Source: Rhodospirillales bacterium
Lineage (GTDB): Bacteria > Pseudomonadota > Alphaproteobacteria > TMED109
Direction: 5' to 3'
DNA length: 34,906 nt
Assembly (NCBI GenBank): GCA_028824295.1
Contig: JAPPED010000006.1
Coordinates: 1 to 34,906 of the forward strand
Shown: positions 8,719 through 23,578 of the stretch, in pieces
How the letters are laid out: each line of letters starts with the position of its first letter
How positions within the stretch are numbered: position 1 is the first letter of the stretch
The notes under the pieces: generated by a model
Told to the model about the DNA's origin: nothing
Seen by the model: the letters and a program-made list of their open reading frames with translations, nothing else
Database searches by the model: none
Translations under genes and position numbers: made by a program

Positions 8719-9122
8719 CCGGCTAGCAGATCGTCCATGGTGATTGCCGTCTCGGGAAATGTGCGCACGATGCGGACGTCTTCGGTGACCAGCGGATAAC
8801 CCATCGACTTGGCCAAGGCGACAAACTCGCAGTCGTAGGCCGGACAGGCCGAATTGGCGACAAGTCCCATCACGGCGGCGGAGTCGACATCGCGCTCGCC
8901 ATCAACCAACTCGGCCTCCGCACTCCGAATCAGGGCGCTGGCCTGCGCGAGTCCGATCGTGCCGGCGCGAAGATAGCGGGCCAACATGTTGCGGAATTCG
9001 GATCGCCACAGCGTCGGCACAAACCACTCGTCGGTATGTCGCCGCAGGGCCACAGCGCTGTCGGTGTGCGCCCCCGGCAGCCAGTAGTACGCGACGATGT
9101 TCGTGTCAACCACGACGTTCAC
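8712..9122 (-). CDS. vapC: PIN-domain toxin, VapC family
   Basis: A 136-residue PIN-fold ribonuclease, the toxin of a type II toxin-antitoxin system. The acidic metal-binding residues are visible: D6 in VVDTN, E42 in RSEFRN, D97 in AYDCEF, and D115 in TEDVRI. The ATG at 9122 overlaps the antitoxin stop by 4 bp (ATGA), the classic coupled arrangement. The gene end runs 7 bp into trmB on the opposite strand. The RNA target cannot be deduced from sequence. Composition is less GC-extreme than the neighbours, consistent with an acquired module. Confidence 0.9.
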   Translation of the reverse strand: MNVVVDTNIVAYYWLPGAHTDSAVALRRHTDEWFVPTLWRSEFRNMLARYLRAGTIGLAQASALIRSAEAELVDGERDVDSAAVMGLVANSACPAYDCEFVALAKSMGYPLVTEDVRIVRTFPETAITMDDLLAGQ

Positions 9123-9355
9123 GGCCGGCCGCTACGCTTGTACCGGTCCACGAGGCCGTGATCGACGGGCGGCAGCTTGCCTCGCAGCTGGGCAGCTTCG
9201 GCCATCAGTTCCGCTTTGGATCGCGGCGGTTGCTCCGCGTAGCGTTCGAGGCAGGCGATGACCTCGTTCTGCAGGCTTCGGTGGTGACGGCGCGCAATGT
9301 CCTTCAACCGCTCATGGAGTGTGGCGGAGATGCCCTTGATCGTGATGGATGGCAT
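9119..9355 (-). CDS. vapB: ribbon-helix-helix antitoxin (FitA/VapB-like)
   Basis: A 78-residue DNA-binding antitoxin. Residues 1-40 (MPSITIKGI, then LHERLKDIARRHHRS and LQNEVIACLERY) fit an Arc/FitA-type ribbon-helix-helix. The C-terminal half, about 45-78, is the likely toxin-neutralising tail. The start is ATG 9355. The frame continues upstream into a decayed glcF fragment that is not part of this protein. The stop overlaps the vapC start by 4 bp. Such antitoxins normally repress their own promoter. Confidence 0.82.
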   Translation of the reverse strand: MPSITIKGISATLHERLKDIARRHHRSLQNEVIACLERYAEQPPRSKAELMAEAAQLRGKLPPVDHGLVDRYKRSGRP

Positions 9356-9370
9356 GGGCTGACTTCCGAT

Positions 9371-9416
9371 TTGCAACCAAAGTGCAAGTTTGGGCGGGAC
9401 GGCGCGTTCTGTCAAC
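9371..9416 (-). promoter_or_regulatory. possible vapBC promoter/operator
   Basis: On the minus strand a perfect -35 hexamer TTGACA (9411-9416) is followed by two TTGCA repeats (within 9371-9389) just upstream of the antitoxin start. Repeats at this place would suit autoregulation by a ribbon-helix-helix dimer. The -10 element is poor, so this is a suggestion only. Confidence 0.3.
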
Positions 9417-9433
9417 GTCGCGGCGCGGCATCC

Positions 9434-9560
9434 GAAGGGGCATGTCGTCATGCCGGACAGGCATAGCCGGCACTGGTCCACGTTCCGCACCGTCCTGGCG
9501 TCCACCAGCCGGTCGTTCTCAAACATGTCGTTGATCAGGTAGATCCGGCCGCGCGGGTTG
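9434..9560 (-). pseudogene. decayed internal fragment of glcF (glycolate oxidase Fe-S subunit)
   Basis: The minus strand reads NPRGRIYLINDMFENDR followed by a CRLCLSGMTTCP segment, matching the intact GlcF of this window (SPRGRIYLIKDMLENDR...CLSCLSCMTTCP, 22099-22225). A gap-free hand alignment of 127 bp shows about 25 mismatches, roughly 80% identity. The CxxCxxCxxxCP cluster motif has lost its third cysteine (replaced by Gly), and nothing else of glcF can be recognised on either side. It therefore cannot make a functional protein. The frame is still open and runs into the vapB frame, which could mislead gene callers into extending the antitoxin to 162 residues. It is probably the scar of a duplication or insertion. 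Confidence 0.8.
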
Positions 9561-9632
9561 TGCGTCGGCGTCCCGACCCCGACACAGGCCGCTGACGTTG
9601 AGGTCACGGCAGATCAATCCATAATGTCGAAA

Positions 9633-9649
9633 CTGTAACTATGTAACAG
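9633..9649. promoter_or_regulatory. imperfect palindrome before the COG0523 gene, possible metalloregulator site
   Basis: CTGTAACTATGTAACAG is an inverted repeat (6 of 7 arm positions pair) ending 13 bp before the ATG at 9663. It is AT-rich in GC-rich DNA. It does not contain the ATGTTATA core seen at the two stronger Zur-like sites of this window, so assignment to Zur is weak. Confidence 0.35.
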
Positions 9650-9662
9650 GCAGGTTTGCGCA

Positions 9663-11006
9663 ATGACCCAGCGTGTTCCCGTAACCGTGCTGACCGGATT
9701 TCTCGGCAGCGGCAAAACCACCCTGCTCAACCGAATTCTGACGGAGAACCACGGTCAACGCATAGCCGTGATCGAGAACGAGTTTGGCGAGATCGGCGTC
9801 GATCAGGAGCTGGTGATCAATGCCGACGAAGAAATCTTCGAGATGAACAACGGCTGCATCTGCTGCACCGTGCGAGGCGACCTGATCCGCATCCTGGGAA
9901 ACCTGGTCAAGCGGCGCGACAAGTTCGACCGGATCCTGGTCGAGACCACCGGACTGGCTGACCCGGGCCCGGTGGCGCAGACGTTCTTCGTCGACGACGA
10001 GACCCGCGAGTCGTTCGACCTTGACGGCGTCGTGACCCTGGTCGATGCGAAACATGCGGAGTTGCAGCTCGACACCAGCGAGGAAGCCGCATCGCAGATC
10101 GCCTTCGCAGACGTCATCGTCATCAACAAGATTGATCTGGTTGACACCGACGCACTCGACGCACTGAAACGGCGGCTCAGGTCGATGAATCTCATGGCCC
10201 GCATCGAACAGGTCGAAATGGCCGATGCACCCATGGAACAAGTGCTGAACGTCGGCGGCTTTGATCTCGACCGTGCACTGGAGCTCAAACCAAGCTTCCT
10301 CGAACCGGAGTATGCATTCGAGTGGGGCGGTGTACTGCGCCTCGACGGCAAGGCGAAATTCAGGCTTCAGAATGGGCCAGATCCCGTGATGTCGGCGGTG
10401 CTGGAGCCCATCCACGCGGCCACGACCGAAGCCCTGATGGAGGCCGCGGAACGCGTCTACACCCGGTTCTCGGCACCCGGTGAGGTGCTGCAGCCGGGCG
10501 CCACGATGACCCCGGGCGAAACCCTCTGGACGCTGACGCTCACCGATGCCGATCACTACGAATACACGCTTGCTGCCGATCAGCCGGGCCTCTACGCACT
10601 GTTTACCGAGCACACGCCGGAGGAATTCGACGCCGGGTTCTACGGTGATTCGGGTGCGGGCATCGACGTTGCGATGGAGCATTTTTTCAATCCGGAGCAC
10701 ACGCACGACGACACGGTCGGTTCGATCGCCCTGGAACTCGATGGCGAGATCGACGGCACGGCGCTCAACGCATGGATGGGCCAGCTGCTGCAGACCCGAG
10801 GCCCCGATATTTTCCGGATGAAGGGCATTCTGGCGATCGCGGGCGAAGAGCAGCGATTCGTGTTCCAGGGCGTGCACATGCTGTTCGACGGCCAGCCCGG
10901 CAAGGCCTGGGGCGACCAGCCCCGCTCCAACCGCCTGGTCTTTATCGGCCGCAATCTGGATGAGACGGAGCTGGAACAGGGTTTGCGCAATTGCCGGGCG
11001 CGATGA
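9663..11006 (+). CDS. COG0523/CobW-family GTPase, putative zinc chaperone
   Basis: A 447-residue G3E-family GTPase thought to deliver metal to client proteins. The Walker A motif GFLGSGKT is at 12-19. The metal-binding CxCC motif is NGCICC (C65, C67, C68). The Walker B-like ETTGLADPGPV is near 94-104 and the guanine-specificity motif NKID at 155-158. The C-terminal CobW_C region contains a His/Asp-rich stretch (HFFNPEHTHDD) that could bind metal. It resembles the group found with Zur regulons, and here a zur-znu operon lies 6.5 kb away with a degenerate paralogue in between. Zinc is inferred from this context; other metals cannot be excluded. The gene starts at ATG 9663, and a WD40 gene follows on the same strand. 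Confidence 0.9.
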   Translation: MTQRVPVTVLTGFLGSGKTTLLNRILTENHGQRIAVIENEFGEIGVDQELVINADEEIFEMNNGCICCTVRGDLIRILGNLVKRRDKFDRILVETTGLADPGPVAQTFFVDDETRESFDLDGVVTLVDAKHAELQLDTSEEAASQIAFADVIVINKIDLVDTDALDALKRRLRSMNLMARIEQVEMADAPMEQVLNVGGFDLDRALELKPSFLEPEYAFEWGGVLRLDGKAKFRLQNGPDPVMSAVLEPIHAATTEALMEAAERVYTRFSAPGEVLQPGATMTPGETLWTLTLTDADHYEYTLAADQPGLYALFTEHTPEEFDAGFYGDSGAGIDVAMEHFFNPEHTHDDTVGSIALELDGEIDGTALNAWMGQLLQTRGPDIFRMKGILAIAGEEQRFVFQGVHMLFDGQPGKAWGDQPRSNRLVFIGRNLDETELEQGLRNCRAR

Positions 11007-11260: not shown

Positions 11261-12337
11261 ATGTTCGTTCAACCGACGGCTGGGTCGAAGGCCGTGAGTG
11301 ACTATGGGCTCGATAGTTGGACAGTGAACGCGCCTCTGACCGGCGTGTGTGTCGAGCGTAGCGGGCAGTTTGCAGCGTTTGCGGGAGGGGACGGCTGCGT
11401 TCGCATTGTTTCCCTTGTTGAACCGGAATCCTCTCTCTCGGTATGGTCACTAACAAAAGGCGCAGTGCTGGCGCTGACCCCCGATTGTCAGGCGCGCGGC
11501 TTCCTGTGTGGGGCCGATGACAGCGCGCTGTACCAAGTCCATCCCATGGATGGACCACGAGAGCTGGCGCTGCTCACCCGTTCTTGGCCAGATCAAGTGG
11601 TCGCGCACCCGCGTGGCCTGCGAGCGGTCTCCGACGGCCCGGAAGTCCGGCTGCTGGACGCCGAGGGCCGGCTGGTCACCGTGCTTGCCGAGCATCCAAG
11701 CACCGTCGCCGGCCTGGCCTTTGACGACAGCGGCCGGCGGCTGGCCGTCTCGCACTACAACGGGGTCAGCCTGTGGACGCTGGACGGGCGAAGCGGTGAG
11801 CCGCAGCGCCTGTGTCATCGAGGCTCACACCTCGATCTAACCTGGAGCAGGAACGGCCGGTTTCTGGTGACGGCCACGCAGGAAAAGACACTGCACGTGT
11901 GGGATCTCGTGTCCGGGCAGGACTCCACGCTCGGGCCGTGCATCAACAAGGTCAAGGCGCTCAGCTGGAGCGCTGACGGATCGTGGCTGCTCGCCTCGGG
12001 GGCCGATACCGTTAGCGGTTGGTCATTCTCGAACGACCGCCTGCCGGCGGCGGCGCCGCACATGCTGGGGCGCTACAGCGAATACCTGATCGGCAATGTT
12101 TGCGCCAACCCCAGCCTCGCCCTGGCGGCGGCCGGGTACAACGATGGCGGTCTTGAGCTGGTGAGCCTGGCGGTTCAGCCGCAGAGGCGGAGCCTGGTCA
12201 GAGCGCCAAGCAGTCCAATCGCAGGCCTCGCGTGGTCCCCGAGCGGGGACCACTTGCTCGGCGGAGACAAGGACGGGCGATTGTTCGCATATCGTTTCGA
12301 TAGCGATTCGCTCGCCCGCCTTGCCTGCACAGATTGA
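11261..12337 (+). CDS. WD40-repeat protein
   Basis: A 358-residue protein built of WD40-like blades. Repeat units are seen near residues 26-52, 148-175, 190-218 (with HVWDLVSG), 231-257 and 320-348, each with a GLAW/ALSW-S-x-DG core. It probably folds as one seven-bladed propeller, with some blades too diverged to count. No signal peptide or catalytic residues are visible, so a scaffold or binding role is likely. The start is uncertain: ATG 11261 or the in-frame GTG 11294 (GAAGG upstream). It lies 254 bp after the COG0523 gene on the same strand, and its end is 6 bp from the convergent cyclase gene. A link to zinc is suggested only by this position. Confidence 0.82.
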   Translation: MFVQPTAGSKAVSDYGLDSWTVNAPLTGVCVERSGQFAAFAGGDGCVRIVSLVEPESSLSVWSLTKGAVLALTPDCQARGFLCGADDSALYQVHPMDGPRELALLTRSWPDQVVAHPRGLRAVSDGPEVRLLDAEGRLVTVLAEHPSTVAGLAFDDSGRRLAVSHYNGVSLWTLDGRSGEPQRLCHRGSHLDLTWSRNGRFLVTATQEKTLHVWDLVSGQDSTLGPCINKVKALSWSADGSWLLASGADTVSGWSFSNDRLPAAAPHMLGRYSEYLIGNVCANPSLALAAAGYNDGGLELVSLAVQPQRRSLVRAPSSPIAGLAWSPSGDHLLGGDKDGRLFAYRFDSDSLARLACTD

Positions 12338-13516: not shown

Positions 13517-13561
13517 CGCGGTTCCTCCCAACGTAGTGTCGGCCGAAAATGTCCTGTCGAA

Positions 13562-13597
13562 GAAACATTATAACATTTCAACACGGAAAAATGTCAA
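13562..13597 (-). promoter_or_regulatory. promoter with Zur-like box upstream of the cyclase-family gene
   Basis: On the minus strand a perfect -35 TTGACA (13592-13597) and a perfect -10 TATAAT (13567-13572) with an extended TG are separated by 19 bp. The 18-mer GAAATGTTATAATGTTTC (13562-13579) overlaps the -10 and matches the idealised Zur palindrome GAAATGTTATAACATTTC at 16 of 18 positions. Predicted transcription starts near 13560, about 44 bp before the ATG. Occupation of this box would block RNA polymerase, as expected for zinc-dependent repression. Confidence 0.68.
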
Positions 13598-13724: not shown

Positions 13725-14777
13725 CTAAACCGGTAGCGACGGATCCCGCGCTGCGCGGGCTGCCCGGGCCGCGCGTGCATCGCTCAGGCGCTGAAAATGC
13801 GGTAAGTCCAGGCGCAGGCTGTCTTCAACTGCGGCGCGGTCGAGATTGGAGGTGATGAACAGCAACCGGGAGCGATCGACCGCGGCCTCCGGCAACCACT
13901 GCGGAGGCTGGTAGACATGCTGGACGCCGTTGATAACTACGGGCCCGTCCATGCCCTTGATGTTGATAGCGCCCTTCGTTCGATACATGACGTCGCCGTT
14001 CGACTGCGTGCCGGCGTTCAGCCAGCCGTGCAGGGCCTCCCATTCGAGTGCGTGCGAAAATTCGATCGCGAATCCATGCAGCCCGTTCTCTAGCAGATCG
14101 CTGTTGGCATAGTGCGGCGAGGCCAGCCAGCCGCTCAAATCACCATCCAGCAGTCGTGTTTCCAGGCCTGCCCCGAGCAATGCTTCAGCCAGGAAAGGCT
14201 GATCGGACGGCACGCGGACGGCACCGGGGTTCAATCCCTGCAGCAGGGCGTGTGTTGCCGGATCAGCGCGTGACGCGGTGTCGAGCACGATGCGGTCGGC
14301 CACGGCAAGCTGCTTGAAGCCATACTGTGACCGCGCCAGCGCGTTCAACCGGTTGGCGCCGCCCATGACCGTCACCACGCTGTCGAGCCGAAAGTACTCC
14401 GTGACCAGCGCATTGTTCAGCAACGTTTGCATGATTGGCGCCGGATCAGCATCGGCGAGGGTTTCGATCAACACTTGGTCAAATTCGATTTCGCCCTGAG
14501 CCCGCTGGGCAAACAGCCGGCGCAGGCTGCTGACCAACCCCGAGCGGGTGATACAGCACAAACACCCGATGGCATGCGGCACCATCTGCCCGGCAACACG
14601 GTCGGTCGACGCGGCGGTGAACTCCGGACCGTCGACATCGTTGCTGATCACCGCCCAGCGACCACCGTCCGTTTCCAGCAGGTGTTCAACGGCTTCGGTT
14701 CTTGTACGGGCATCGACCCCGCAGACCACGATCGCCGGCAGCTTGGCTCGGGCAGAGTCAGGGACAAATTTCAGCAT
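13725..14777 (-). CDS. COG0523-like protein lacking the GTP-binding P-loop
   Basis: A 350-residue paralogue of the COG0523 GTPases. The CxCC metal motif is kept (GCLCC, C72, C74, C75), and ETLADADPAPI aligns with the ETTGLADP switch region. The C-terminal CobW_C domain is recognisable near residues 240-335 (KGAINIKGMDGPVVINGVQHVYQ). At the Walker A position the sequence is GVDARTRT (20-27) instead of GFLGSGKT, with no lysine, and no NKxD motif is seen near 163-170. It therefore probably cannot hydrolyse GTP in the usual way. ATG 14777 has AGGTGA 8 bp upstream; the frame opens at 14828. It lies 141 bp after znuA on the same strand and may be the last gene of the zur-znu unit. Confidence 0.85.
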   Translation of the reverse strand: MLKFVPDSARAKLPAIVVCGVDARTRTEAVEHLLETDGGRWAVISNDVDGPEFTAASTDRVAGQMVPHAIGCLCCITRSGLVSSLRRLFAQRAQGEIEFDQVLIETLADADPAPIMQTLLNNALVTEYFRLDSVVTVMGGANRLNALARSQYGFKQLAVADRIVLDTASRADPATHALLQGLNPGAVRVPSDQPFLAEALLGAGLETRLLDGDLSGWLASPHYANSDLLENGLHGFAIEFSHALEWEALHGWLNAGTQSNGDVMYRTKGAINIKGMDGPVVINGVQHVYQPPQWLPEAAVDRSRLLFITSNLDRAAVEDSLRLDLPHFQRLSDARAARAARAARDPSLPV

Positions 14778-14801
14778 GGTTGGTTCACCTGAACAGTGCA
14801 G

Positions 14802-14918: not shown

Positions 14919-15824
14919 TCAAGCCGACAGCGCCCGTGCAAGCGTCATCGCGTTGTAACGCATCATGTCGAGATAGGTGGACGCAGGACCGTCAGGTCCG
15001 GACAGCGCATCGGAGTAGAGCGTCCCGCCGATGGAAGCCCCGGTTTCGTTGGTGATCTGCTCGAGGAGACGCGAATCGGTGATCGCTTCGAGAAAGACGG
15101 CCTCGATCCTCTCTTGACGGATCTGCCGGATCAGCGTGGCGACGTCCGTTGCAGACGCCTCGCTTTCCGTGCTGACGCCATGGGGTGCCACAAAGTGCAG
15201 ACCGTAGGCTTCGGAAAAGTATCCGAAGGCGTCGTGGGACGTCACGACGGTACGCCGGTCCGCTGGCAGCCCCGCGAACAGCTCGCGGATTTCCGCCTCC
15301 AGCGCCTCGATTTCGGCCACATAGGCAGCACGGTTCCGGTAGTAGAAATCCGCGTTCTCCGGATCAGAGGTAGCCAGTGCCCCCGTGATGTTGTCGACGT
15401 AGACCAATGCGTTTGCAAGGCTCTGCCAAGCATGCGGGTCGAAGGCGTCGTGGTAGTCGTGATCGGCAAGCGCGATTGGCTCAATTCCCTCGCTTGCCAC
15501 CACGCGGACGCCAGCAAAGTGCGATGCCTCGACGAGTCGATCCAGCCAGCCTTCGAATGAGAGGCCATTGACCACGAGGATCTCGGCCTGGCTCACGGCG
15601 CGCGCATCTTCCGGGACCGGCTGGTACACATGGGCGTCGCCGTTGGGCCCCACGAGCATGGTGACGGCCACCTTTCCCCCCCCAATGCGCTCAACCATGT
15701 CTCCAAGAATTGAGAAGGTGGCGACGACCGGGATGGGCCCGGCGGACCAGGCCAGCGTTGGACCGGTCAACACAAGGACGAAAAGAGCCGTCGCTGCTTT
15801 CAGCAGGTTTCTGCGGTCGAGCAT
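14919..15824 (-). CDS. znuA: zinc/manganese ABC transporter substrate-binding protein
   Basis: A periplasmic metal-binding lipoprotein-like or soluble receptor of the cluster A-I family, 301 residues. The signal sequence is about residues 1-28 (RRNLLKAATALFVLVLTGPTLAWSAG). Metal ligands by pattern are H65 (DAHVYQP), H131 (DPHAWQS), H197 (SHDAFGYF) and D272 (YSDALSG). Three histidines plus Asp is the ZnuA/TroA set, favouring zinc over the His2-Glu-Asp manganese set. Only a short acidic His stretch (ADHDYHDAFDPH) replaces the long His-rich loop of E. coli ZnuA. It is the last transporter gene in zur - 44-codon gene - znuC - znuB - znuA, 12 bp after znuB. Confidence 0.92.
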   Translation of the reverse strand: MLDRRNLLKAATALFVLVLTGPTLAWSAGPIPVVATFSILGDMVERIGGGKVAVTMLVGPNGDAHVYQPVPEDARAVSQAEILVVNGLSFEGWLDRLVEASHFAGVRVVASEGIEPIALADHDYHDAFDPHAWQSLANALVYVDNITGALATSDPENADFYYRNRAAYVAEIEALEAEIRELFAGLPADRRTVVTSHDAFGYFSEAYGLHFVAPHGVSTESEASATDVATLIRQIRQERIEAVFLEAITDSRLLEQITNETGASIGGTLYSDALSGPDGPASTYLDMMRYNAMTLARALSA

Positions 15825-15836
15825 CGGAATTTCTAG

Positions 15837-16703
15837 CTAGGCTTCAGCGTGACGATACGGATGGACCCGTGCGACAAAGCTGCCCGTCGGTCCGAAGGTG
15901 AGCGACAGCCCGTACGCGAAACCCGCTGCGAGGATGATTGCCGGTCCGGACGGCAGCCCGAAATGGTAGGAAACAAGGAGACCGCAGACGCTCGCGGCCA
16001 CGGCGATAGTGACCGCGGTGAGGATGAGCCCGCCTATGCTGACGGCCCAAAACCGCGCGGCAGCGGCCGGAACAATCATGATGCCGACGACCATCAGGGT
16101 GCCGAGCGCGTGGAAGCCACCGACGAGGTTCAGGACGACAAGCGCGAGAAACGTGAAATGAGTCACGGCGCTCAGCCTGCTCACTGCCCGCAGGAACTGC
16201 GGATCCGCGCACTCAAGGACCAGTGGGCGGAACAGAAGTGCAAGCGCCAGCAGCGTGATGCTCGCGATGCTGCACAACAGAATCAACGCCGAGTTGTTGA
16301 GCGCAAGCACCGTGCCAAAGAGCACGTGCATCAGGTCGACGTTGCTGCCGCGGGTGGACACGATCAGCACGCCAAGCGCCAGCGAGATCAGGTAGAAGGC
16401 CGCGAGGCTCGCATCTTCCCGCAGCGCCGTGACGCGGGTGACGAAGCCCGAAAGCAGCGCGACGGCAATGCCCGCCAACAGCCCGCCTATCGTCATGGCC
16501 CCGAGCGAGAGTCCCGCTACGAGATAACCGACCGCCGCGCCGGGCAGGATCGCGTGCGCCATCGCATCGCCGGTCAGGCTCATCCTGCGCAGCAGCAGAA
16601 AGACGCCCACGGGCGTGGCGCCCACTGAGATTGCGATGCAACCCAGCATTGCACGGCGCATGAAGCCAAATTCGACGAACGGTTCAACCAGCGCTTCCCA
16701 CAT
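15837..16703 (-). CDS. znuB: zinc ABC transporter permease
   Basis: Inner-membrane permease of the ABC-3 family, 288 residues, with about eight or nine hydrophobic segments. The family motif region SLTGDAMAHAILPGAAVGYL (residues 42-61) is the typical ABC-3 signature, and GGFHALGTLMVVGIMIVPAAAARF is the conserved late segment. The ATG at 16703 overlaps the znuC stop by one base (TAATG), so the two genes are translated together. It would form the channel for zinc delivered by ZnuA, powered by ZnuC. Confidence 0.94.
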   Translation of the reverse strand: MWEALVEPFVEFGFMRRAMLGCIAISVGATPVGVFLLLRRMSLTGDAMAHAILPGAAVGYLVAGLSLGAMTIGGLLAGIAVALLSGFVTRVTALREDASLAAFYLISLALGVLIVSTRGSNVDLMHVLFGTVLALNNSALILLCSIASITLLALALLFRPLVLECADPQFLRAVSRLSAVTHFTFLALVVLNLVGGFHALGTLMVVGIMIVPAAAARFWAVSIGGLILTAVTIAVAASVCGLLVSYHFGLPSGPAIILAAGFAYGLSLTFGPTGSFVARVHPYRHAEA

Positions 16704-17446
16704 TACGAAGCGTATCTCCCGCAGTCATGGGGCGGGCCGACACATGCCTCGCACATCTGGCGGGCACGGAACTGGTTCGCCGCCGTCAGCACCTCTGCCG
16801 TGGGGCCGTGCGCCACGAGATCACGCGCCAGTATCAACGTCTCAGGAAAATGCTCCCGGACCGTCTCTGCATCATGCAGAACGGCGATCACCGTGCGCCC
16901 CTCGCCATGCCAGCGCTGCACCACACCCAGGAGATCAATCATTGTCTTGGCATCGATCGCCGTGAACGGTTCGTCGAGTAGCACGAGCCGCGCGTCCTGA
17001 AGCAAGAGCCGAGCGAAAAGCGCCCGCTGAAGCTGTCCGCCCGACAGCGAACCGACGGGTCGGGACTCAAACCCGGTGAGACCGACGGCGGAAATGGCAT
17101 CGTCGACCCGGGCACGAAGTGCGGCGCGCAGCCCGAAGAATCCGCCAATCTCACTCCAGAGACCCACAGCCACCAGATCGACGACCGTGATCGGAAACGA
17201 CTGATCGATGTCCGATTGCTGCGGCAAGTAGGCGATATCGCTCCGGGTACAGGTTCCGAAGTCGACCCTCCCTGCCAGCGGACGCAATGCGCCCGTCATC
17301 CCCTTCAGCAGTGTCGATTTGCCCGCACCGTTGGGCCCTACAACGGCGGTCAGACTGCCGTCGGCAACCTCGCCATCAAGCTGGCGTACCGCCGGATGCC
17401 GGTCGTATCCGAGGGTCAACTCCTCAAATGCAACAGCGTAGGTCAT
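16703..17446 (-). CDS. znuC: zinc ABC transporter ATP-binding protein
   Basis: A 247-residue ATPase of the metal-uptake ABC transporters. Walker A GPNGAGKST is at 37-45, the Q-loop near LPQQ at 74-77, the signature LSGGQ at 134-138, and Walker B LVLLDEP at 154-160. A switch histidine follows in VLHDAE. ATG 17446 is chosen because it overlaps the stop of the preceding 44-codon gene as ATGA and has GGGGAG upstream. A longer frame to 17488 would overlap that small gene and adds no family-like residues. It is part of the zur-znu operon. Confidence 0.94.
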   Translation of the reverse strand: MTYAVAFEELTLGYDRHPAVRQLDGEVADGSLTAVVGPNGAGKSTLLKGMTGALRPLAGRVDFGTCTRSDIAYLPQQSDIDQSFPITVVDLVAVGLWSEIGGFFGLRAALRARVDDAISAVGLTGFESRPVGSLSGGQLQRALFARLLLQDARLVLLDEPFTAIDAKTMIDLLGVVQRWHGEGRTVIAVLHDAETVREHFPETLILARDLVAHGPTAEVLTAANQFRARQMCEACVGPPHDCGRYAS

Positions 17447-17577
17447 TGGCTCCCCGGTGTGGAGGTCGCCCAGAAAAATGCGGCCCAAAGCGCCATGACG
17501 AACAGTACCGCTACGGCGAGCCGTGGACCGACTCCCACGAGAAGCACCCTACCGGCCACGTGGCGCCAGACTTTCAT
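17443..17577 (-). CDS. 44-residue single-span membrane protein inside the zur-znu operon
   Basis: A short gene not matching any family I know. It encodes a basic N terminus (MKVWRHVAGR), then a hydrophobic stretch of about 25 residues with two tryptophans (LAVAVLFVMALWAAFFWAT), and a short tail. This predicts one transmembrane helix with the N terminus in the cytoplasm. Its ATG overlaps the zur stop (ATGA) and its own TGA overlaps the znuC ATG (ATGA), so it fits exactly between the two and should be translationally coupled to both. It fills what would otherwise be a 127-bp gap in a compact operon. It could be an accessory subunit of the ZnuBC permease or a coupling leader; function is unknown. 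Confidence 0.68.
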   Translation of the reverse strand: MKVWRHVAGRVLLVGVGPRLAVAVLFVMALWAAFFWATSTPGSQ

Positions 17578-17975
17578 GCTTGATCCTCTGCTGATCCGCA
17601 GCTTGCGCACTGGCCGTGGACCTCAATCACGTGGCGTGTCGGTGCGAAGCCCGACTGTCCCGCGATGCTGGACAGCTCCCTCAGCAGGTCCGGTGCGACG
17701 AATTCCTCGACCTCCCCGCAATCATCACAGATCGAGAGAATCGACGCGTCTTTATGCGAATGTGACTTGCAGGCGATAAAGGCATTAAGGGATTCAAGAC
17801 GGTGCACGCCGCCGCGCTCCGTCAACGCTGCCAGGGCACGATAGATGGTTGGCGGTGCAAGCTGAGGGTTACTGTCACGCAATTGGCCAAGTACCTCGTA
17901 AGCGGACATTGGAGTACCGCGACGCCGCAAGATGGCAAGCACCTCCGCCTGCATGATCTCGCCACGCTTTTTCAT
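17574..17975 (-). CDS. zur: zinc uptake regulator, Fur family
   Basis: A 133-residue Fur-family repressor that binds DNA when zinc is plentiful. The winged helix spans about 1-60, with the recognition segment APPTIYRALAALTERG. Structural zinc cysteines are C83, C86 (CDDC), C123 and C126 (CASC). Regulatory-site candidates include H72 and H74 (SHSHKD), and H115 and H120. Start ATG 17975 has GAGGA about 5 bp upstream. It is the first gene of the operon leading into the znu genes, so it is likely autoregulated through the box at 18029-18046. Zur rather than Fur is chosen because of the znuCBA linkage. Confidence 0.93.
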   Translation of the reverse strand: MKKRGEIMQAEVLAILRRRGTPMSAYEVLGQLRDSNPQLAPPTIYRALAALTERGGVHRLESLNAFIACKSHSHKDASILSICDDCGEVEEFVAPDLLRELSSIAGQSGFAPTRHVIEVHGQCASCGSAEDQA

Positions 17976-18014: not shown

Positions 18015-18046
18015 AGTAAAGTGTGTTTGTTATGTTATATCAAGCC
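18015..18046 (-). promoter_or_regulatory. zur-znu operon promoter with Zur-like box
   Basis: On the minus strand -35 TTGATA (18038-18043) and -10 TTTACT (18015-18020) are exactly 17 bp apart. Predicted transcription starts near 18008, about 33 bp before the zur ATG. The AT-rich stretch GTTATGTTATATCAAGCC (plus strand, 18029-18046) overlaps the -35 and spacer. It contains the core ATGTTATA, also present in the cyclase promoter, and one good Zur half-site (TATAACATAAC read on the minus strand). Confidence 0.62.
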
Positions 18047-21075: not shown

Positions 21076-22362
21076 TCAGTGAAGGGCCGCCGGTCGCGGC
21101 CCCCCGGTCGCCCAATCGAGCAGTTCCACCGTATGCACCACCGGGAGGTCGCAACCTCCTGCGATCTGCACCATGCAGCCGATATTGCCGGCGGCAACAA
21201 CGGTTGCACCGGTCCGCTCTAGGTTGCCGACCTTTCGTTCGCGCAGCCGCTCCGCAATCTCGGGCTGCAGCAGGTTGTAGGTGCCGGCCGACCCGCAGCA
21301 GAGGTGTCCCTCGGCCACCGGCCGCACGTCGAACCCGGCTGCGCTCAGGAGCGACGCGGGCATGCGGGAAATCTGCTGGCCATGTTGCAGGGAACATGCC
21401 GAGTGGTAGGCGACGCTCGTGCCCGCGTGCGGCCCGGATATGGCCGGCAGCGTCAGGCGCTCCACCACTTCGGTAACGTCGGCCGCCAGCCCGGCGACCC
21501 AGGCCGCGTCCTCGCGGTCCGCGTCCGACCCGAGCAGGTGGCCGTAATCCTTGAGCATCGTGCCGCACCCGGACGCGTTCACGACGATGGCGTCGAGCGG
21601 ATCCTGGGCGTCCAGCGCACGCCACGCGGCGATGTTCTGCCGGGCGGCCTGCTTGGCGGCGTCCTCCCGGCCCATGTGGTGCACCAATGCGCCGCAGCAG
21701 CCGGCCGTGGCGGCCACGACCACGTCGGCACCCAGCCGGGTGAGCAGTCGCACCGTCGCGTCGTTGATCCGGGGGTCGAGGGCCTGCTGCACGCACCCGG
21801 CGAGCAGCGCCACCCGGAGCTTGCGGTCGCCCGCTGCCGGGTGGACGGAGCCCGGTCGGACGAAGCTGCCCGGGACAGGCTGCCGCGGGATCATGCGCAG
21901 CATGGTCCCGGCGGGCTCGGGCAGCAGCCGGCCAAACGGGCGGGCGATCCGTCCGAGGCGCAGCGCCCACCGAAAGCGCGCGGGATAGGGCAGCAGGAGT
22001 CCGAACAGACCCCGGACCAGCCGCTCGAACCAGGGGCGCCGATACGTCTCCTCGATCCAGGCCCGCGCGTGGTCGACCAGGTGCATGTAGTGCACGCCGG
22101 AGGGGCACGTCGTCATGCAGGAGAGGCACGAAAGACACCGGTCCATGTGCAGCACCGTCCGGGGATCCGCCGGCCGGTCGTTCTCCAGCATGTCCTTGAT
22201 CAGGTAGATCCGACCCCGCGGGCTGTCGAGTTCGTCCCCGAGCAGCACGTACGTCGGACAGGTGGCCGTGCAGAACCCGCAGTGCACGCAGGCACGGAGA
22301 ATGCCGTTCGCCGTGCGGATGGCCGGGTTCTCGAGCTGGGCGGCCGTGAAGTTGGTGCGCAC
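21076..22362 (-). CDS. glcF: glycolate oxidase iron-sulfur subunit
   Basis: A 428-residue electron-transfer subunit of the GlcDEF complex, which oxidises glycolate to glyoxylate. The first cluster motif is CVHCGFCTATCP, and the second CLSCLSCMTTCP follows, both for [4Fe-4S]. Two CCG-type repeats come later: AGCCGALVHH and HLCCGSAGTYNLLQPE. The start is taken as GTG 22362, four bases after glcE's stop and with GAGG just upstream, because it gives the usual N terminus (RTNFTAAQLENPAIRTANGILRAC...). The longer frame to 22569 only overlaps glcE. A fragment of a second glcF copy lies at 9434-9560. Confidence 0.94.
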   Translation of the reverse strand: MRTNFTAAQLENPAIRTANGILRACVHCGFCTATCPTYVLLGDELDSPRGRIYLIKDMLENDRPADPRTVLHMDRCLSCLSCMTTCPSGVHYMHLVDHARAWIEETYRRPWFERLVRGLFGLLLPYPARFRWALRLGRIARPFGRLLPEPAGTMLRMIPRQPVPGSFVRPGSVHPAAGDRKLRVALLAGCVQQALDPRINDATVRLLTRLGADVVVAATAGCCGALVHHMGREDAAKQAARQNIAAWRALDAQDPLDAIVVNASGCGTMLKDYGHLLGSDADREDAAWVAGLAADVTEVVERLTLPAISGPHAGTSVAYHSACSLQHGQQISRMPASLLSAAGFDVRPVAEGHLCCGSAGTYNLLQPEIAERLRERKVGNLERTGATVVAAGNIGCMVQIAGGCDLPVVHTVELLDWATGGPRPAALH

Positions 22363-22366
22363 CGCC

Positions 22367-23578
22367 TCAGGCTCCCATGCGGCCGGGATTGAGGACGCCC
22401 GCAGGGTCGAAACCGGAACGGATCGCCGCCGCAATCCGCTCGATGCCGTCGCTCTGCCGCGGAAACACTCCCTCGGCGGCCCGCACCGATGGCGGCGCCC
22501 GGAGCAGCGTCGCCGCCCCTCCCACGCGTTCCGTTTCGGCGCGGACCTCGGCCGAGGCGCTGGCCTCACCCGCGGGCGCGAACCACAGCATGCCGCCGTC
22601 CAGCAGCCACACCCCGCCCGGGCGCCCGACCAGCCGGTCGATCACGCCGGCAGCCGAGGCGGGCGGCAACGACAGCCGCCAGAGCGGACGCTCCGCCTGC
22701 ACTGACACCGCATCCGCGAACGGCGCCGCGTCCGTGATCGCCTTCCACACCGCGCGCGATTCTTCATCCCCGAGCTGGAGCGAGGCACCGCCCAGCTGGT
22801 CGCGCATGCGCGTGAGCCGGTCGAGCACCGAACTCTCCGGCCCTTCGAACCGGATGGCGGCGATGCACCCTGCATCGGCCGGCAGGCCCGGCGGCAGCAG
22901 CGGCACGACTTCCGGCGGGACGCAACTGAACCCGCTCGGCTCCAGGCGGCTCTGCCAGGCGGCGATCAGCAGGCCGACGGCATCGGCGACGGATCGGCCC
23001 GGCAGCAGCAGCGTGCCGGTCCGCGCCGCCCGCGGCAGCACCTTGACCGTCACCTCCGACAGGGCGGCGAGCGTGCCGAACGAACCCGCCAGGAGCTTGC
23101 AGAGGTCGTACCCGGTCACGTTCTTCACCACGTGGCCGCCAGCCTTGAACGCCTCGCCCCGGCCGCTCACGGCCCGAAACCCGAGGAAGTGATCCCGCGC
23201 GCCGCCCGCGCGGACCCGGCGGGAGCCGGCGAGATTGCACCCGAGCACGCCGCCGACGGTGGCGCCGCCAGCCGGTACACCGTAGAGCGGACCGAAGTCG
23301 GGCGGCTCGAACGCCAGTTCCTGATCGTGTTCCCGCAGCAGCGCTTCCACCGTCGCGAGCGACGTGCCGGCCCCGCAGGTCAGTGTCAGCTCGTCTGGAG
23401 CGTAGGCCTCTATCCCGGTGAGGCCGTCCAGTTGCAGGGTCACGCCGGCATTGACCGGTCGCCCGAAACGCTGCTTGGTGCCAGCACCGTTGACCTGGGC
23501 CGGCGTTCCCGCCGCCGTCAGCCCCCGAATCGCGTCGATGAGTTCCGACTCGTCCGCCGGCCGGACCTGCACGTCCAC
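22367..23578 (-). CDS. glcE: glycolate oxidase FAD-binding subunit
   Basis: The accessory FAD subunit of glycolate oxidase, 403 residues. It has an FAD_binding_4 domain with GAGTKQRFG near the N terminus, PAGGATVGGVLGCNLAGSRR as the FAD pyrophosphate region, and VVKNVTGYDLCKLLAGSFGTLA, typical of GlcE. The C terminus ends GVLNPGRMGA as in other FAD-linked oxidases. The start is uncertain: GTG 23578 is favoured because it lies just after glcD (stop at 23592), whereas the frame upstream is glcD sequence. GTG 23572 is possible. Order glcD-glcE-glcF, likely one operon. Confidence 0.9.
   Translation of the reverse strand: MDVQVRPADESELIDAIRGLTAAGTPAQVNGAGTKQRFGRPVNAGVTLQLDGLTGIEAYAPDELTLTCGAGTSLATVEALLREHDQELAFEPPDFGPLYGVPAGGATVGGVLGCNLAGSRRVRAGGARDHFLGFRAVSGRGEAFKAGGHVVKNVTGYDLCKLLAGSFGTLAALSEVTVKVLPRAARTGTLLLPGRSVADAVGLLIAAWQSRLEPSGFSCVPPEVVPLLPPGLPADAGCIAAIRFEGPESSVLDRLTRMRDQLGGASLQLGDEESRAVWKAITDAAPFADAVSVQAERPLWRLSLPPASAAGVIDRLVGRPGGVWLLDGGMLWFAPAGEASASAEVRAETERVGGAATLLRAPPSVRAAEGVFPRQSDGIERIAAAIRSGFDPAGVLNPGRMGA

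Follow-up and report, generated by a model that had tools for sequence, protein, structure and literature searches.

A COG0523 homologue that has lost its nucleotide-binding motifs is conserved in zinc loci of Alphaproteobacteria beside a Tat-signal cyclase

Background

In the COG0523 model, GTP binding and hydrolysis tighten and release a bound metal. The role of GTP and the clients of COG0523 metallochaperones are open questions. According to Haas and co-authors (2009), the Walker A and Walker B motifs define COG0523 proteins, and Rv0106 of M. tuberculosis has a CxSC motif and no Walker A (PMC2770081). Mrf, its orthologue, is regulated by Zur, and the recruitment of a ribosome hibernation factor by Mrf depends on zinc (PMC7174638, PMC13418864). 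The loss of Walker A thus has a precedent in Rv0106/Mrf, which is distantly related and has another function. A partial search of the literature returned no COG0523 protein that keeps CxCC without the nucleotide motifs and no pair of a COG0523 protein and a Tat cyclase.

Here we analyze a stretch of 34,906 nucleotides from a Rhodospirillales bacterium (contig JAPPED010000006.1), which we call the window. It encodes a COG0523 homologue with an intact metal motif and none of the nucleotide motifs, referred to below as the pseudo-GTPase. We demonstrate that this protein is a real conserved variant of a known family and that it has a concrete, testable candidate client.

Results

The pseudo-GTPase gene occupies positions 13725..14777 on the reverse strand. 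Its frame begins with ATG and encodes 350 amino acids followed by a stop codon. A Shine-Dalgarno sequence, AGGTGA (14785..14790, reverse strand), lies 7 nt before the ATG, in agreement with the good ribosome-binding site described in the original prediction. Two Pfam domains were detected in the protein: cobW (PF02492) at residues 26-172 (E 1.9e-16, 60.6 bits against a cut-off of 20.7) and CobW_C (PF07683) at residues 235-322 (E 2.4e-16, 59.8 bits against a cut-off of 22). More specific profiles gave nothing: the Mrf profile NF047431 has no match at E<=0.01, and the scores for the CobW cobalamin profile TIGR02475 (51.8 bits, cut-off 332.1) and the ZigA profile NF038288 (40.3 bits, cut-off 600) do not reach the thresholds.

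The P-loop GFLGSGKT is replaced by GVDARTRT at residues 20-27 (14697..14720, reverse strand). Therefore the protein fails the Walker A pattern GxxxxGK[ST] of COG0523/G3E GTPases, as do all its orthologues. The site of [NT]KxD reads DTAS (residues 166-169, 14271..14282, reverse strand). The original prediction had reported both losses together with the retention of CxCC and CobW_C, and all of this is correct. It had also taken the switch region to align; that motif (Walker B / switch II) proved degenerate as well, with ETTGLADP changed to ETLADADP at residues 105-112 (14442..14465, reverse strand). In sum, two P-loop glycines, the lysine, the glycine of ETTG, and NKxD are all gone. What remains is the CxCC motif, here CLCC at residues 72-75 (14553..14564, reverse strand) within an intact GCLCC (residues 71-75), together with E105, D111, K155-Q156, H287, and the C-terminal domain. 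A C-terminal tail (residues 325-350, 13728..13805, reverse strand) is conserved in the pseudo-GTPase group only. We class the protein as a COG0523 homologue rather than a GTPase.

YjiA of E. coli is a sequence match of the pseudo-GTPase (E 7e-15). The predicted structure of the protein also matches the YjiA fold (Z 23.5 over 292 residues). A helix begins inside the former P-loop in this model; the control model of the intact neighbour is poor (pLDDT 63). A collapse of the P-loop was dropped from consideration, as the control model looks much alike here and the two models do not discriminate.

Orthologues that are 69-97% identical to the pseudo-GTPase were found in four of six other genomes of the same genus and in five of eight genomes of one genus from a second alphaproteobacterial family. 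Every orthologue that covers the former P-loop reads CG[VIL][DN]AR[TA]RT, with C19, G20, A23, R24, R26, and T27 invariant, and GCLCC is present in all those that include its region. The same altered motif thus occurs in all recovered orthologues from several independent assemblies, and a sequencing error is therefore not the explanation. Across ten orthologues 206 of 350 positions are invariant. Conservation is highest in the CxCC region (30 of 32 positions in residues 64-95), and only two of nine positions are invariant in the former NKxD region. Pairwise dN/dS is 0.07-0.24 for the pseudo-GTPase, which is similar to the values of the intact COG0523 neighbour (0.10-0.19). We have high confidence that the loss of the nucleotide motifs is conserved in this group. 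The gene is shown to have been under purifying selection since that loss, with CxCC invariant.

Beyond these two genera, a sample of 397 further genomes from across the phylum gave no hit at E<=1e-45, and the pseudo-GTPase was not found in further genera of the order. Three genomes of one genus (g229) without the pseudo-GTPase have GTPase-type genes only. No intermediates with a normal P-loop were seen among near relatives.

A decaying paralogue would be consistent with the long stem branch of the group (see below). Such a copy would hardly show dN/dS of 0.07-0.24, and the orthologues whose sequence is complete all share the motif change and have a full-length frame. We therefore reject decay, against which the original prediction had also argued, and give it almost no weight. 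A normal P-loop in close relatives combined with relaxed selection would have spoken against that prediction; neither was found.

The invariance of G20, R24, R26, and T27 raises another question, namely whether a nucleotide or other phosphate ligand is still bound in a remodelled pocket where R24, R26, and T27 were retained or gained. The predicted model, which keeps the YjiA fold, would allow this. Against it stand the lost glycines, lysine, ETTG glycine, and NKxD, and the structure models leave the shape of the pocket unsettled. We consider such binding very unlikely.

The nearest proteins outside the group are 31-36% identical by BLAST and up to 40% identical in genome searches, and all of them have GFLGSGKT. 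In the full tree the pseudo-GTPases form one clade (support 100/100) with a stem of 2.73 changes per column. In a 41-row tree built after removal of the trait columns (motifs and tail), the clade is recovered with the same support, 100/100, and a stem of 2.13. In this tree the pseudo-GTPases group with all 16 cyclase-linked GTPases and one unlinked row (97/86). A single clade of pseudo-GTPases and cyclase-linked rows is not rejected by the AU test (p 0.26). Every outgroup relative retains GFLGSGKT, so the loss is derived and happened once, on the long stem. The partner cyclases form one clade too, with a stem of 0.62, much shorter than that of the pseudo-GTPases, and this clade is sister to the cyclase of a GTPase-bearing locus (95/96). 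Taken together, the two trees imply one loss of the nucleotide motifs, in a lineage that was already linked to the cyclase. The pseudo-GTPase appears to descend from COG0523 GTPases of a branch whose members are encoded beside Tat-exported cyclases; its exact placement is provisional owing to the long branches.

The gene belongs to a zinc locus. On the reverse strand the window encodes a Zur-like repressor of the Fur family (17574..17975), the zinc ABC ATPase AztA (16703..17488, above the NCBIfam cut-off), an AztB-like permease (15837..16703), an AztC-like zinc-binding protein (14919..15824, 141 bp upstream of the pseudo-GTPase), the pseudo-GTPase itself, and, directly downstream of it, a Tat-signal cyclase (PF04199; 12344..13531), which is its likely client. 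On the forward strand lie an intact COG0523 GTPase of 447 amino acids with GFLGSGKT, CICC, and NKID (9663..11006), 2.7 kb away as predicted, and downstream of it a gene for a WD40-repeat protein (11261..12337).

A palindromic motif of 15 bp has been reported for P. denitrificans (PMC5387054). Three Zur-box-like sites, which resemble the alphaproteobacterial 15-bp Zur palindrome, were seen in the window against 0.3 expected: a palindrome upstream of the cyclase (13561..13575) and sites upstream of zur-aztABC (18028..18042) and of the intact COG0523 gene (9634..9648). Other loci have such sites at the same places, and those of the second family have one in the divergent region between zur and the pseudo-GTPase as well. 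The 141-bp gap before the pseudo-GTPase in the window contains no Zur-box-like site, and the gene probably rides there on the zur-aztABC transcript. Scans for terminators and sigma-70 promoters gave results at the chance level.

Several further features of these loci were observed. The block of aztABC, zur, pseudo-GTPase, cyclase, WD40, and COG0523 genes is patchy and rearranged in the two families (f1 and f80), which suggests that it was transferred as a unit. One MAG has a second copy of the locus (L028, G004:C86) that is much closer to the other family; this contig is probably mis-binned. In genome G389, a second pair of WD40-like and AztC-like genes is located upstream of the zinc locus (L050, 157-2333). 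In the window, an open reading frame at 9119-9607 (reverse strand), upstream of a VapC-like toxin gene, resembles in its N-terminal part residues 97-134 of a GlcF-like protein encoded at 21076-22569; it could be what is left of a gene, joined in frame to a VapB-like antitoxin.

The pseudo-GTPase gene immediately precedes the cyclase gene, in the same orientation, in 10 of the 12 loci. In the other two (L022 and L023) both genes belong to one cluster and lie approximately 6 kb apart. Among 15 genomes of the two genera, 10 have both the pseudo-GTPase and the cyclase orthologue and five have neither (Fisher p 0.0003, uncorrected for relatedness). One partner cyclase (L027, 8047-9218, the same contig as L051) is split between two frames in one assembly, owing to a frameshift or decay.

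The link to COG0523 extends beyond the pseudo-GTPases. Alphaproteobacterial cyclases with a readable twin-arginine (RRxF) signal have a COG0523 gene within approximately 4 kb, usually at 50-400 bp. About 26 cyclases of the Sec type have no COG0523 gene in the flanks examined (mostly 1.5 kb, four of them longer); the one exception of this type sits beside another COG0523-cyclase pair. The association of the Tat signal with COG0523 may have arisen just once in the tree, and it is possible that Tat PF04199 cyclases and COG0523 proteins are a general pair of enzyme and metallochaperone. The partners of pseudo-GTPases share a 10-residue insertion that GTPase-paired cyclases lack. Throughout the cyclase subfamily the canonical H-x-G-T-H is replaced by Q-x-G-T-Q, with glutamine for both histidines. 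This replacement makes the need of the cyclase for metal uncertain, which is the main weakness of the proposal that the pseudo-GTPase loads it.

Discussion

The explanation we tentatively prefer, although we hold it with slightly less than even confidence, is that the protein is a Zur-controlled pseudo-GTPase derived from COG0523 that would hold or load metal for the cyclase linked to it, with no need for nucleotide. From the invariant CxCC motif we infer that it holds metal. Zinc starvation would induce the gene, with expression following Zur; transcription would start from zur-aztABC in the window and from a shared or its own Zur site in other genomes. Lacking a GTP switch, the protein would bind zinc through CxCC and dock on the cyclase by its conserved CobW_C face. 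The metal might then be held or passed by ligand exchange before Tat exports the folded cyclase. Our confidence in this mechanism of action is moderate. It is possible, if rather doubtful, that the protein is a nucleotide-independent loader dedicated to the Tat-exported cyclase, in which the GTP switch became dispensable and metal holding and client docking were kept. The Tat pathway exports folded proteins, and cofactors of its substrates are inserted in the cytoplasm. It therefore makes sense for a cytoplasmic metal chaperone to be encoded beside a Tat enzyme.

The original prediction proposed a metal-holding partner, decoy, or regulator of the active GTPase. Its core, a conserved version in a zinc locus without nucleotide motifs, stands; the choice of the GTPase 2.7 kb away as the partner is less supported, since the recurring partner in the branch is the Tat cyclase. 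The pseudo-GTPase could still be a decoy or regulatory partner of the active GTPase (9663-11006), for instance in a metal-holding heterodimer whose active subunit supplies GTP switching. Both proteins have CxCC, both are under the same predicted Zur control, and they share a locus in almost every genome that has the pseudo-GTPase: the long COG0523 gene (cobW-long) is absent from two genomes only, where the locus is on a short contig. As the intact GTPase and the cyclase both co-occur with the pseudo-GTPase, co-occurrence cannot separate the two partners. However, the pseudo-GTPase and the intact GTPase come from separate COG0523 branches (28-31% identity), and the relatives of the former have a cyclase as partner even in genomes where no cobW-long was found nearby. 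We regard a role as partner of the GTPase as unlikely. The cyclase is the likelier client because it recurs in the branch, also without cobW-long nearby.

A role like that of Mrf was considered as well. The protein would then respond to zinc, and its apo form would recruit or regulate some other protein, possibly under the control of proteolysis, with no chaperone role. Rv0106, the Mrf orthologue, is also zinc-linked and without Walker A (PMC2770081, PMC7174638, PMC13418864), and fast change on the stem with conservation thereafter agrees with a new function. The Mrf model is nonetheless unmatched at E<=0.01, the pseudo-GTPase keeps CxCC where Rv0106 has CxSC, and the neighbouring gene encodes a cyclase rather than paralogues of ribosomal proteins. 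We find this role quite improbable.

Among the known systems, subfamily 5 of COG0523, found with WD40 and znuABC genes (Haas et al. 2009, PMC2770081), fits in its context the intact neighbour (9663-11006) and the WD40 gene. It describes that neighbour and not the pseudo-GTPase. Mycobacterial Mrf (Rv0106 / MSMEG_6069) is COG0523-like and induced by zinc starvation; it differs in its context of ribosome hibernation and, in Rv0106, in the CxSC motif. E. coli YjiA (PDB 1nij, 4ixm) shares with the pseudo-GTPase the overall fold, CxCC, and CobW_C. Unlike the pseudo-GTPase, which is without any nucleotide motif, YjiA has GFLGAGKT and verified GTPase activity (PMC2770081). A protein that keeps the metal motif without the GTP motifs, in the same genomes as intact COG0523 GTPases, offers a direct comparison of the two forms. 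The closest relatives outside the group are the cyclase-linked COG0523 GTPases of Alphaproteobacteria (for example L053, L061, and L066), which are 350-370 amino acids long and adjoin a Tat cyclase, as the pseudo-GTPase does. They keep GFLGSGKT, ETTG, and [NT]KxD, whereas the pseudo-GTPase has none of these, and their genes are mostly divergent from the cyclase gene, whereas that of the pseudo-GTPase is upstream on the same strand. The linkage to the Tat cyclase proposes a concrete client for the whole COG0523 branch, testable in ordinary alphaproteobacteria.
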